Shown here: piece by piece, positions 4,038-12,329 of the stretch
Numbering within the stretch: position 1 is the first letter of the stretch
Layout: every line of letters begins with the position of its first letter
Assembly (NCBI GenBank): GCA_024958715.1
Contig: JANWUS010000084.1
Location: forward strand, 1-50,460
Origin: Cyanobium sp. FGCU52
GTDB lineage: Bacteria > Cyanobacteriota > Cyanobacteriia > PCC-6307 > Cyanobiaceae
Length of the DNA: 50,460 nt
Direction of reading: 5' to 3'
Notes under the pieces: generated by a model
Databases searched by the model: none
Told to the model about the DNA's origin: nothing
The model's input: the letters and a program-made list of their open reading frames with translations, nothing else
Made by a program: the position numbers and the translations under genes

Positions 4038-4166
4038 AGCGGGAGGATCTCGATGGCTTTCGTAGCCAACCGCACAAGAGGGTCAGGGATGTGCGGAAGA
4101 CAATCGACGCGATTTTGGCGAAGAGAGCAACTTCACCATGACGTGTCAGCCCGCAGAAGAATCCGG

Positions 4167-4673
4167 ATGTTGCTCCTGAAGAAACTCAAGGGCGATGGCC
4201 TGTCGCTGCCACCGCGGCCAGCCGCCAAAGCGGTTGCCCTCGCATGGCTGGGTGGCTTTCTTGCCATCGCCGTCGTTGCCCTGCTGGCGGACTTTCTCTC
4301 CGTCGCCATGGTGCTTGGGTCCTTCGGCGCTACCTGCGTGCTGGTCTTCGGCTATCCCGATGTGCCATTTTCCCAGCCGAGAAATGTGATCGCCGGTCAC
4401 TTCATCAGCTCATTGACTGGCCTGATTTTTCTTGCCGCCTTTGGCCCTCATTGGTGGTCTGTCGCTCTCTCGGTTGGCACAGCGATCGCCCTGATGATGC
4501 TCACGCGCACGGTTCACCCGCCTGCAGGCTCGAACCCGGTGATCGTCTTTCTCACCCAACCACCATGGAGCTTCCTGCTGTTCCCCACGCTGATCGGGGC
4601 ATTGCTCCTGGTGGCCGTCGCTCTTCTCTACAACAATGCAACGCGAGATGGCAGATATCCCAAGTATTGGTAG
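4167..4673 (+). CDS. HPP family integral membrane protein
   Basis: The protein has 168 residues and at least four membrane helices. It carries the signature from which the family is named, TRTVHPPAGSNPVIV, plus the SFGATCVLVFGYPDVPFSQPRN segment preceding it. HPP proteins in cyanobacteria and chloroplasts have been linked to nitrite transport across membranes; that role is family knowledge and not tested here. ATG 4167 gives the normal family length; an upstream ATG at 4053 would add 38 Arg-rich residues with no membrane character. The gene has noticeably lower GC than its neighbours and stands alone between convergent units, which could indicate later acquisition. Confidence 0.82.
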   Translation: MLLLKKLKGDGLSLPPRPAAKAVALAWLGGFLAIAVVALLADFLSVAMVLGSFGATCVLVFGYPDVPFSQPRNVIAGHFISSLTGLIFLAAFGPHWWSVALSVGTAIALMMLTRTVHPPAGSNPVIVFLTQPPWSFLLFPTLIGALLLVAVALLYNNATRDGRYPKYW

Positions 4674-8044: not shown

Positions 8045-8521
8045 ATGGCCTCCCGCACCCGGCCCACAGGCCCCACCGTGCGCCGCTCCCTGTGGCAGTC
8101 CGGGGTCGGCGCCGGACTCGCCCTGGTGGCTGTCGTCGGCGGTGCGCCCGCCGGGGCTCAGATCAGCGGCGAGAACAGCGCAGCGGCCAAGGGCGCCCAG
8201 ACATACTGCTTCATGCGCAACAACGGCAACAACCATGAGGTGAGCTGGACTGCCGCTTACGCCCTGATCAAGCGACAGAGCGCCAGCCTGTTCAAGACTT
8301 CGCCGGAACATGCCGCGGTGATGATCACCGAGGCCGTGGTGCAGAACCCGGGCAACTACCCCGATTGCGGCCGCTACCTCGGTGATCTCTACAGCCGTCG
8401 GGTGCGGATGGTGGCGAACCCTCCCTCCAGCGGTGACCCCACCGCCATTCCCACCGATGCGCCGGGTGGTAGTCCTGGTGCAACCGGTGGCATGACCCGC
8501 AGTGAGCGCTACGGCAACTGA
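8045..8521 (+). CDS. Small exported protein, DUF6554-like
   Basis: The 158-residue protein has an N-terminal Arg-containing region and a hydrophobic stretch ending in APAGAQ (residues ~18-39), consistent with a signal peptide. The mature domain contains two cysteines (TYCFMRNNGNNHEVSWTAAY and NYPDCGRYLGDLY) that could form a disulphide, then a Pro/Gly/Thr-rich tail. The conserved core resembles a cyanobacterial family that I recall as DUF6554; the name is from memory. The last 20 bases overlap the start of the downstream lipoprotein gene, so the two are translated from one message. Confidence 0.6.
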   Translation: MASRTRPTGPTVRRSLWQSGVGAGLALVAVVGGAPAGAQISGENSAAAKGAQTYCFMRNNGNNHEVSWTAAYALIKRQSASLFKTSPEHAAVMITEAVVQNPGNYPDCGRYLGDLYSRRVRMVANPPSSGDPTAIPTDAPGGSPGATGGMTRSERYGN

Positions 8522-8931: not shown

Positions 8932-10566
8932 TCACCAGCCGTCCAGCAGGCGGCGCACCCGCTCGGGCAGGGCACGACGCCGCCAGCGCTCCCCGGGACT
9001 CTCCAGCACCCGGGAGATGCGCTCCGCCTTGTCGGCGATCAGATCATCGACCAGGGCATCGGCGGCTCCCAGCTGCAGCCAGTGGCTGGTGAGGCCGGCG
9101 GCCATGCCGATGCGGTGGCAGCGGTCTTCCGCCTGCTCCGCGTCGCCGGGGGTCCAGGGGCGTTCCACCAGCACCACGTGGCTGGCCCGATGCAGGGTGA
9201 AGCCGAGACCCGCCGTGCCGAAGGTGGCCACCAGCAGCGGACGCCGTCCCGCCTGGAAGGCATCCACCAGCGGCTGGCGGCGCGGGGGTGGCACGGCGCC
9301 GGTGAGCAGCACGGCCCGCTCGTCGCCGCCGCACTGGCGGTGCAGGCGACGGGCCGTGGCCACGAAGGCCGTGAACACCACCACCGCCTCCCCCTCGGAC
9401 AGGAGCCGGCGCACGAGGGCCAGGGCCACCGGGACCTTGTAGTGGGAGCCGATCAAACGCAGGGCGGTGAGCACCGCCAGCAGCTCCGCATCCCGGCGCA
9501 CCTCGCCCCGAAAGGCCCGTCGGCGGTAGTCGGCCACCCGGGCATCCAGCCGGCGTTCGAAGCCCCGGGCCGCCCCACCCTCCAGCTGCACCGGCACCAG
9601 CCGCCGCTCCTTCGGGGGGAGGTCGAGGCACTGCTGCTTGCGGCGATGCAGCAGCAGCGGGCGCACCAGGCGCTGCAGCTCCTCCAGATGGCTGGCCCCC
9701 CGGGCCTCCCACACACGCCGTCCGGCCTGCTCACGCCAGTGGCCCTGGCAGTAGCGCTCCTCGAAGGCCTGCTGATCGTGCCCCAGGGGATGGCCGATCG
9801 CCGCCAGCAACGGGAACAGCTGCACCGGCCGGCCGTTGCGCATCGGCGTGCCGGTGAGCAGCCAGGCGGCCCGCAGCCGCGGATGGCGCGCCAGACGCAG
9901 AAACGCCCGCGTACGGACCGCCGCCAGGGACTGGGCGAAGTGGGCCTCATCGGCGATCAGCACCGTCCCGGCCTCCGGCAGCTCCTGGGGCAGCCGGGCC
10001 CAGCTGTGCAGCTCCAGCCGCAGGCCCAGGGCCAGGGACTCCTGACGCCAGTGCGCATGGAGACCCGCCGGCGCCACCACCAGCACGCGGCAGTCGGCGG
10101 AGCGCACCATCCCGCGGGCGGCCACCAGCGCCGAGAGGGTCTTGCCCAGACCCATGGCATCGGCGAGAACGGCACCGCGGCGGGCCAGCAGCCAGCGGAC
10201 GGCGGCGCGCTGGTGGGCGAACAGGTGGCGGCCGTCGATCAGGGGGGAGCCGGGATCGGCCGCCGCCACGAGGTGGCGATGGGGCGGCAGGGGCGGCAGG
10301 GGCTGCCGCAGCCACACCAGCCAGCGCCGCAGTTCGTCGCTCACCGGGAACCGCCCCCCCAGCTTCTGTTCCAGGGCGGCGGCGGCCTCGAGGGGGAACT
10401 CCCAGCAGCCGCGACGGCTCAGCCAGCGCCCCGCGGGCCGCACGCTGCGCAGCTGGGCCTGGGTGACGGCATCGAACGGGCTCACCACCTCGATCAGGCC
10501 GGTGGGCCCCAGCCGCATCTGCACCAGCGATCCCGCCAAGACGCCAAAGTGCTGCCCTCGACACAT
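8932..10566 (-). CDS. SNF2-family helicase with a HARP-like N-terminus
   Basis: The protein has 544 residues. The SNF2 translocase core begins near residue 115 and shows motif I (DAMGLGKT, 136-143), motif II (DEAH, 206-209), motif III (LLTGTPMRN) and, in the second RecA-like half, motif V (FGTAGLGFTLHRAS) and motif VI (QAEDRCHRIGM). Before the core, residues ~20-70 (GLIEVVSPFD, then GRWLSRRGCWEFPL) resemble the HARP domain of SMARCAL1-type annealing helicases. In eukaryotes that combination rewinds RPA-coated DNA and remodels stalled forks. An ATP-dependent role on branched DNA is therefore plausible but inferred. It is transcribed away from an HNH endonuclease gene starting 48 bases away. 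Start ATG 10566 is chosen; a GTG two codons upstream is possible. Confidence 0.85.
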   Translation of the reverse strand: MCRGQHFGVLAGSLVQMRLGPTGLIEVVSPFDAVTQAQLRSVRPAGRWLSRRGCWEFPLEAAAALEQKLGGRFPVSDELRRWLVWLRQPLPPLPPHRHLVAAADPGSPLIDGRHLFAHQRAAVRWLLARRGAVLADAMGLGKTLSALVAARGMVRSADCRVLVVAPAGLHAHWRQESLALGLRLELHSWARLPQELPEAGTVLIADEAHFAQSLAAVRTRAFLRLARHPRLRAAWLLTGTPMRNGRPVQLFPLLAAIGHPLGHDQQAFEERYCQGHWREQAGRRVWEARGASHLEELQRLVRPLLLHRRKQQCLDLPPKERRLVPVQLEGGAARGFERRLDARVADYRRRAFRGEVRRDAELLAVLTALRLIGSHYKVPVALALVRRLLSEGEAVVVFTAFVATARRLHRQCGGDERAVLLTGAVPPPRRQPLVDAFQAGRRPLLVATFGTAGLGFTLHRASHVVLVERPWTPGDAEQAEDRCHRIGMAAGLTSHWLQLGAADALVDDLIADKAERISRVLESPGERWRRRALPERVRRLLDGW

Positions 10567-10614
10567 TGACACCCCTGGCACCCGGGGCAAACTTCCGCCA
10601 ATCGAGGCGCTTCG

Positions 10615-11064
10615 ATGCAGGCCAGGGATGGAGTGTTCCTCGAGGATCTCTGCCCCAAACTGCGCGACCGACACTGGCGGCGCTCCCTCCACGGCTTCAC
10701 CGGCCGCCGCTGCCTCTACTGCGGGGCCGCCTCCGAATCCATCGACCACGTGCATCCCCGCAGCCGCGGTGGCGGCAGCGTGACCGAGAACTGCGTGCCG
10801 GCCTGTCTGGGCTGCAACGGCGCCAAGGGCGACAGCGAAGTGTTCAGCTGGTATCGACGCCAGCCCTTCTACGACCCGCGGCGGGCGATGGCCCTGCGCG
10901 CCTGGACCGAAGGCGATCTGCGCCTGGCCATGCGCCTGCTGGAGTGGGTCACGCCCCCGGCCGCGATAGAGGCACCTGCAGCGGCCCGCGGATCAGGCCG
11001 TCGCGACCTTCACCAGACGCGACAGGCGGCCACGCCGTTGTGGCGCTGGCAGATGGCCTCCTGA
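10615..11064 (+). CDS. HNH endonuclease
   Basis: The 149-residue protein has a complete McrA-type HNH fold. Zinc-binding Cys pairs lie at residues 33/36 (CLYC) and 64/67 (CLGC). The catalytic ββα-metal motif is DHVHPRSRGG (Asp44-His45), ENCVPAC (Asn59) and CNGAKGD (Asn68). It should nick or cut DNA; sequence preference is unknown. It is divergent from the SNF2 helicase gene with a 48-base gap, so the two may share control. The last ~18 codons overlap, on the opposite strand, the end of a small membrane-protein gene; this C-terminal tail looks unstructured and is probably dispensable. Confidence 0.85.
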   Translation: MQARDGVFLEDLCPKLRDRHWRRSLHGFTGRRCLYCGAASESIDHVHPRSRGGGSVTENCVPACLGCNGAKGDSEVFSWYRRQPFYDPRRAMALRAWTEGDLRLAMRLLEWVTPPAAIEAPAAARGSGRRDLHQTRQAATPLWRWQMAS

Positions 11065-11372: not shown

Positions 11373-12329
11373 ATGACGAGTGATACAGGTGTACTCATGG
11401 AGGAGGCGGGTGTCAACCTCCCCGCCGCCGCGGCCGCCGGCATCGGGCGGATGCTGGTCCTCGGCGGCGGCTACACCGGACGTCGCTGTGCCGCCGCCCT
11501 GGCCCGCTCCGGCGTGGCGGTGACGGTGACCCACCGGCAGGCCCCCCAGCCTACGGCGGCCGCCGGCGGGCCCATACCCTGGCTGGCCTTCGACCCTGCC
11601 CGCGGCCTCCTGCCCGATGCCGATGCCCTGCGGGACATCACCCATCTGCTGGTGACGATCCCGCCGGACCCCGAAGGCCGCGATCCGGTGCTCACCCATC
11701 TCGGCAGCCTGCTGGACGGACTGCCGCTGCGCTGGGTGGGCTACCTCTCCACCACCGGTGTGTACGGCGACACCGGCGGGGCCTGGGTGGACGAATCCAC
11801 TCCTCCCGCTCCGGGGCTTGGCCGCAGCCGGGCCCGGCTCGCCTGTGAGCAGGCCTGGCGCGATCGCAACCTGCCGCTGCAGGTGTTCCGCCTGCCGGCG
11901 ATCTACGGCCCCAACCGCACGCCGTTCGCCAGCCTGCAGGACGGCACGGCCCGGCTGGTGCACAAGAGCGGCCAGGTGTTCTGCCGCATCCACGTGGACG
12001 ACATCGTGGGGGCGGTGCTGCACAACCTCGCCCTGCCGGCCAGCCGCCGGCCCGGCACCCTGATCGTGGCCGACGCCGCACCCTGCCCGTCGAGCGAGAC
12101 TCTTGGCTTCGCGGCCCATCTGCTGGGCCTGCCGCTGCCGCCGGCGCAGCGCTACGAGCAGATCGAAGGCAGCATGAGCCCGATGGCCCGCAGCTTCTGG
12201 AGCGAGAACCGGCGCGTGAGCAGCCGCCTCCTGCAGGAGCAACTCGGCTACCGCCTGCGCTACCCCACCTACCGGGAGGGTTTCCGCGCCAGCCTGGCCG
12301 AGGAGATGGGGGCGACCCCGCCGTTCTGA
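11373..12329 (+). CDS. SDR-type NAD(P)-binding protein
   Basis: The protein is an extended SDR / NAD-dependent epimerase-like enzyme of up to 318 residues. The nucleotide-binding glycine motif is LVLGGGYTGRRCAAALARSG at about residue 29. A sugar-epimerase-type active-site region follows (YLSTTGVYGD, then FRLPAIYGPNR), in which the canonical YxxxK is not obvious. The later segment VHKSGQVFCRIHVDDIVGAV is typical of the YeeZ-like subgroup. Substrate is unknown. The start is uncertain: ATG 11373 is used, ATG 11397 and ATG 11451 (immediately before the glycine motif) are alternatives, and 11373 lies only 9 bases from a divergent start. Confidence 0.75.
   Translation: MTSDTGVLMEEAGVNLPAAAAAGIGRMLVLGGGYTGRRCAAALARSGVAVTVTHRQAPQPTAAAGGPIPWLAFDPARGLLPDADALRDITHLLVTIPPDPEGRDPVLTHLGSLLDGLPLRWVGYLSTTGVYGDTGGAWVDESTPPAPGLGRSRARLACEQAWRDRNLPLQVFRLPAIYGPNRTPFASLQDGTARLVHKSGQVFCRIHVDDIVGAVLHNLALPASRRPGTLIVADAAPCPSSETLGFAAHLLGLPLPPAQRYEQIEGSMSPMARSFWSENRRVSSRLLQEQLGYRLRYPTYREGFRASLAEEMGATPPF

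Follow-up and report, generated by a model that had tools for sequence, protein, structure and literature searches.

The 50,460-nucleotide stretch of Cyanobium sp. FGCU52 DNA analysed here (the window; contig C84, from a genome of 3.48 Mb) encodes an SNF2-type helicase with a HARP-like N-terminal domain, divergently oriented to a gene for a free-standing HNH endonuclease (Table 1). We propose, with a probability of about 0.5, that this helicase is a small HARP-like plus SNF2 translocase of the phage or plasmid type, which was captured on the chromosome of an ancestor of its family, the Cyanobiaceae, has been widely kept there and remodels branched DNA independently of the HNH protein. The phage helicase family as such is known; of interest here are its link to HARP and the finding that it has become fixed in a bacterial family. 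The HNH gene is the neighbour of the helicase gene, and a role as its partner is not shown.

Table 1. Features of the helicase and HNH region, in window coordinates
Feature	Coordinates	Strand	Basis or remark
SNF2-type DNA translocase, 544 aa, phrog_62 match, HARP-like N-terminal domain	8932..10566	-	ATG at 10566; Pfam, phrog_62, AF2
HARP-like domain, helicase residues 18–74	10345..10515	-	hhalign against viral N-termini; PF07443 matches in viral relatives; fold
Both lobes of the SNF2 motor core plus the C-terminal tail, residues about 111–544	8935..10236	-	Pfam; VIA-align
Divergent intergenic stretch, 48 bp	10567..10614	.	without a LexA-like box; true size varies with the helicase start codon
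Free-standing Zn-type HNH endonuclease, 149 aa	10615..11064	+	Pfam HNH 3.7e-9; 4h9d by profile; phrog_2214

The preliminary description had recognized an SNF2 helicase with its full set of motifs and, 48 bp away on the opposite strand, a Zn-binding HNH protein, and both identifications were borne out. Pfam returned SNF2-rel_dom (E = 7.4e-20) and Helicase_C (7.8e-13) for the helicase, and the motifs that place it in the SNF2 superfamily are intact: Walker A GLGKT (residues 139–143), DEAH (206–209), TGTP (238–241) and QAEDRCHRIG (478–487). Most of these positions are invariant across 29 aligned rows, which include the window and represent 29 of the 47 family helicases in the stretches examined. 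The AF2 model of the helicase has a mean pLDDT of 87.4. Comparison with solved structures by VIA-align, the rows of which mostly cover residues 85–532, that is, the motor outside the HARP-like domain, placed CSB (7oob_b) at the top with a Z score of 27.3 and an rmsd of 3.0 over 416 residues; this Pol II-bound CSB was tied within 1 Z unit with INO80 and ISW1, and no SMARCAL1 chain was named among the matches listed. Residues 1–16 of the helicase are poorly conserved and a TGA lies within the matched stretch of five same-genus relatives, so that the start codon is uncertain and the true intergenic gap may be nearer 96 bp. LexA control of the divergent pair was considered and dismissed, because LexA-like boxes lie between the two genes in just 1 of 47 stretches, about the background rate. 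Other open reading frames of the window encode a DM13 electron-transfer domain protein (1962–2603), an HPP transmembrane protein (4053–4673) and a DUF6554 protein (8045–8521).

The helicase N-terminus had been likened to the HARP domain of SMARCAL1, and here the direct profile search was negative: PF07443 matched neither the window helicase, even at E ≤ 10, nor any of the 29 aligned rows (the window and 28 relatives), nor anything in the window's own genome, and in the 291 genomes of the class it gave one weak match (0.0037, below the cut-off) in a short, unrelated-looking frame from another family. Taken alone, these negatives would refute the assignment; a transitive test through viral relatives reversed the verdict. 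Of 80 viral relatives, 17 had a PF07443 match at E ≤ 0.1, mostly weak and at best 1.1e-5 (the 80 frames include near-copies and one fragment, L314); in the viral locus L328 the profile reached 25.3 bits against a cut-off of 25. An HMM built from residues 15–80 of the family matched the viral protein L253 at positions 107–158 (domain E = 2.1e-6), and PF07443 matches the same protein weakly at 109–152 (0.022). By hhalign, the family N-terminus matched the realigned viral N-termini with 97.1% probability; none of 200 column shuffles scored as high (best 18.6 versus 49.9), the reversed profile scored 11.0, and among 27 windows along the viral helicases just the 4 overlapping the N-terminal region matched. 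The hhalign comparison is not wholly blind, because its viral stretches were drawn from an alignment (A5) that contained the family, and the PF07443 counts of 7/10 in a viral scan and 12/36 in alignment A5 refer to proteins chosen by eye among 38 frames, partly on their N-termini, and are not rates. Within the segment itself (residues about 18–74), P30, D32, G46, W55, F57 and P58 are invariant across the 29 aligned rows, and the model predicts a strand–strand–helix–strand–strand–helix order with a pLDDT of about 90 over residues 21–70. Remote sequence homology supports the reading of this domain as HARP-like; the likeness to HARP was upheld through the viral relatives, and the direct match to the HARP profile was not found.

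HARP may be one branch of a broader domain group that also takes in the HARP-like domain of the window helicase, because DUF5710 matched 7 of the 80 viral relatives (E ≤ 0.1), its best match (4.9e-7) being stronger than the best HARP match, and the two overlap in L311 and L328. Such overlaps in the N-termini of some viral SNF2 helicases (A6, L252–L331) suggest that the two Pfam families are related. On the viral contig L328 (935–3418), an SNF2 helicase has two HARP matches, echoing the tandem HARP domains of vertebrate SMARCAL1.

The helicase is homologous to phage helicases. The phage DNA helicase profile phrog_62 matched it with E = 5.2e-62 (best over 201–536, in two stretches), and the viral relative L257, which has a HARP match, fits the same profile over 22–535. 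The closest named record was the helicase of Cyanobium sp. FGCU6 (92% identity), found among the best 80 of 365 genome_contigs loci, all 80 being at least 65% identical. In the 291 class genomes, orthologue-grade matches occurred in the Cyanobiaceae and in one genome outside, G324 (45%, 7e-120), the helicase protein of which is identical to that of the plasmid pSYN7502.01; a gene near the helicase on the G324 contig reads as ParA-like, and an ATPase gene near the plasmid helicase is annotated with chromosome segregation. The five best matches in the plasmid collection came from Microcystis, Nostoc and Synechococcus PCC 7502 plasmids (39–45%), and relatives on viral contigs reached 44% identity. 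In a tree of 46 rows, the 9 family rows formed one branch with 100/100 support amid viral and plasmid rows, and a starred branch separates a group of 17 rows, of which 11 are viral and 6 are chromosomal SNF2 proteins; the tree is rooted at its midpoint, does not settle the order of donors and includes three wrongly picked frames with very long branches (L160–L162). The case for a mobile origin rests on the collections searched, namely the class genomes, plasmids, viral contigs and the best 80 of 365 loci.

Two observations on individual records arose from these searches. In the viral helicase relative at L265:1643–5110, the DEAH box itself is interrupted by a large insert whose ends look intein-like; Pfam Intein_splicing matches a single frame among the 80 viral ones (9.3e-7), which is presumably that of L265. 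A record filed as Bifidobacterium breve (L174) has the cyanobial helicase and HNH genes and is probably mis-binned.

The HNH protein belongs to PF01844, scoring 37 bits against a curated cut-off of 21.4, and it matched the phage profile phrog_2214 HNH (1.9e-20); its residues C33, C36, D44, H45, N59, C64, C67 and N68 are invariant across 29 aligned rows, window included. The closest solved structure by profile was 4h9d (E = 6.8e-9), and the ZRANB3 HNH did not appear in the profile list at E ≤ 1, an absence to which we give no weight. The structure prediction for the HNH protein had a mean pLDDT of 58.8, and its PDB search gave no match at E ≤ 0.001, so no conclusion was built on the model. The relatives of the HNH protein found outside the family are cyanophage endonucleases, which in the top rows of one comparison were 38–44% identical over 82–94 residues. 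Past a variable linker, the HNH protein ends in a conserved tail (window 11035–11061; orthologues L063–L118), -AA in 42 and -QAA in 32 of 56 printed frames and -MAS in the window; the tail, which we take to resemble an ssrA-type ClpXP degron, is also kept in genomes that lack the helicase. Genomes of genus g17, which are small (G017, corresponding to L096, G067, G095, G117, G136 and others), lack the helicase and carry a second, diverged HNH copy elsewhere, 55–60% identical to the window HNH.

To what extent helicase and HNH belong together was asked of 151 family genomes, in which strong matches (listed down to E = 8e-25 for the helicase and 3.6e-43 for the HNH) were found to the helicase in 106, to the HNH in 129 and to both in 105. 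The two genes are divergent neighbours in 104 of the 105, the exception, G018, having both at contig ends; in the best 80 of the 365 genome_contigs loci, the HNH is present in 78 and the other two loci end upstream of the helicase. The neighbourhood survey thus bore out the adjacency that had been predicted and not the partnership built on it, since the whole block is equally fixed. In a block control of 56 stretches, HNH and SNF2 genes lay within 1.5 kb of each other in 47/47; the block, of 13 genes, has 11 further neighbouring pairs, of which 10 did so in every stretch with both genes and the eleventh in 35/37. These values count pairs solely where both genes occur, in stretches mostly 13–16 kb long, and a distant relocation would not register. 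Counted unconditionally, accB, pdxA and the open reading frame at 11373 were present in 55 of 57 stretches and the open reading frame at 8045 in 53, one of the 57 being a second HNH locus and one being 3.5 kb long. Products of the block genes include EF-P, PdxA, a biotin-carrier protein, a cyclophilin and an AIR-synthase-related protein, and because all of it is conserved, the adjacency of helicase and HNH is explained without a partnership. Furthermore, 24 of the 129 HNH genomes, all of 1.9 Mb or less, have no strong helicase match (23 of them informative, as the HNH of G001 lies at a contig end), and in the nine that were measured 76–487 bp separate the HNH from the next block gene.

The preliminary description had raised the possibility that the pair is a split ZRANB3. 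Helicase and HNH would then form one machine of two proteins, whose translocation powers cutting at stalled forks. Besides the near-constant divergent arrangement, this interpretation would account for the confinement of both genes to the family among the 291 class genomes, apart from one helicase, and for genus g8 (6 genomes), which has a strong match to neither, so that joint gain or loss is possible; it could also draw on L328, the one locus among 86 viral, phage and plasmid loci with a C4-type HNH pattern near a helicase relative, where an HNH open reading frame lies just upstream of the HARP-SNF2 gene. Against it stand the equal fixation of the other block pairs and the genomes that keep the HNH without the helicase. 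None of the four plasmid regions read has such an HNH adjoining the helicase relative (an annotated HNH of pNOS7524.01 lies about 6 kb away), and no SNF2 gene accompanies the cyanophage-type HNH in the 13 viral-collection loci, within their available DNA; one of the 13, the IMG/VR viral contig L332, is in fact host DNA from this gene block and has the HNH without the helicase. ZRANB3 is a single protein with its HNH domain at the C-terminus. In the portion of PMC5481773 available, a helical insert of this domain (deletions 972–1010 and 975–1013) precedes the active site D1020–H1021, and its deletion abolishes nuclease activity. The first cysteine pair of ZRANB3 would lie before the insert; in the window HNH, just 7 residues separate C36 of the CxxC from D44 of the DH, which leaves no room there for such an insert. 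We therefore consider a split ZRANB3 improbable, and the partnership of helicase and HNH is not supported; the pair of activities is the only point in favour of a ZRANB3-like way of working. The preliminary description had named a HARP profile without a hit, together with genes that are not neighbours in related genomes, as the outcome that would overturn it. At face value half of this was found, the missing PF07443 match but not the loss of adjacency, and both halves mislead: the profile misses a domain that the viral relatives reveal, and the adjacency follows from the block. A conserved divergent pair can suggest a functional partnership where block synteny alone explains its adjacency.

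The helicase and nuclease had alternatively been suggested as a possible anti-invader system, which would work as DISARM, Zorya or Dpd do. PADLOC helicase models do match the motor (ZorD 2.5e-25, DpdE 8.5e-24), and kinship with mobile elements would suit a defence function, but the NCBIfam models score far below their cut-offs (ZorD 55.9/1500, DrmD 44.8/610, DpdE 34.2/500) and the genes sit in the conserved EF-P/PdxA/biotin-carrier/cyclophilin block rather than in a defence island. We dismissed the defence identities from PADLOC and NCBIfam as generic motor matches, and hold a defence role to have little chance of being correct. A transcription-linked translocase that moves or recycles RNA polymerase, as RapA or CSB-like proteins do, would fit the structural ranking, which is led by CSB bound to Pol II; however, motor matches of this kind are generic to SNF2, the RapA equivalog model gave 17.5 bits versus 576, and the HARP-like domain points to branched DNA, so that such a role appears equally unlikely. 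Nor do we see much likelihood that the helicase is a mobile-element relic that is weakly selected and has no set cellular role. Its strong matches are limited to 106 of the 151 genomes and missing from many small ones, as a relic might be, but the invariance of its motor motifs and its retention in the same genomic slot at 41–74% identity to the window speak against this reading.

We infer the direction of transfer, DNA substrate, rewinding activity and cellular role of the helicase, and suggest the following course for a captured, branch-remodelling translocase. Phages and plasmids would use such a helicase in replication or recombination; an ancestor of the Cyanobiaceae would have captured it from a mobile element, and the host would have retained it in most lineages. 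The enzyme most likely tracks on double-stranded DNA, and its HARP-like domain may act at branch points in rewinding or in fork or D-loop remodelling, as in SMARCAL1. It would work without the HNH, a nuclease that may be maintained independently and owe its fixed position to the conservation of the block. For SMARCAL1, as far as PMC4035279 was available, annealing requires no more than the second HARP domain plus the SNF2 motor next to it, and other SNF2 motors gain the activity when HARP domains are fused to them. Because the window helicase comprises little beyond this minimal annealing unit, it is a likely double-stranded DNA translocase that would recognise branches and rewind DNA.

A more far-reaching reading, which we offer tentatively and regard as unlikely on balance, is that phages, plasmids and a bacterial family carry true HARP-SNF2 annealing helicases. 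SMARCAL1-type fork remodelling would then exist in prokaryotes, the eukaryotic enzymes could plausibly derive from the phage pool, and this family would have turned a phage enzyme into a fork-rescue gene that it has widely retained. The accessible part of a 2022 review states that SMARCAL1 has no known homologue in prokaryotes (PMC9368896), and the titles and abstract openings of open-licence literature did not mention a HARP domain for any prokaryotic SNF2 protein. A HARP-like phage helicase family that became fixed in picocyanobacteria provides a small protein with which the statement in that part of the review can be tested directly (PMC9368896).

Comparison with known systems places the two proteins as follows. 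With ZRANB3/AH2 the pair appears, on sequence, to share an SNF2 motor and a Zn-type HNH as activities, and bacterial ZRANB3-like proteins are already mentioned in a figure legend of PMC5481773. Here, in contrast, motor and HNH are encoded by separate genes and not fused, the HNH is without the ZRANB3-specific insert and the helicase carries an N-terminal HARP-like domain. The HNH is also kept without the helicase in 24 genomes, and the plasmid helicases have no such HNH adjoining them; two genes, one of which is retained without the other, are not a ZRANB3. The closest solved relative of the HNH by profile, the Geobacter metallireducens HNH nicking endonuclease (4H9D), is, in the portion of PMC5481773 available, likewise among the closest structural homologues of the HNH of ZRANB3; unlike the Geobacter enzyme, the window HNH has a conserved extension past the HNH core (WYRRQxFYDPRRAMA...). 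Cyanophage HNH endonucleases are up to 46% identical to the window HNH over about 80 residues. Like SMARCAL1/HARP, the helicase has an SNF2 motor immediately preceded by a HARP-like domain, an arrangement comparable to the minimal annealing unit described in the available part of PMC4035279; it differs in having a single diverged HARP-like copy that escapes PF07443, and its annealing activity would be deduced from this likeness. Jumbo-phage SNF2 helicases have been proposed, according to the part of PMC7824862 available, as stand-ins for UvsW in recombination. The plasmid versions and many of the viral ones carry additional N-terminal sequence that is missing from the window helicase, which shares with phage helicases the SNF2-type profile phrog_62, as a version that has become a widely kept chromosomal gene.
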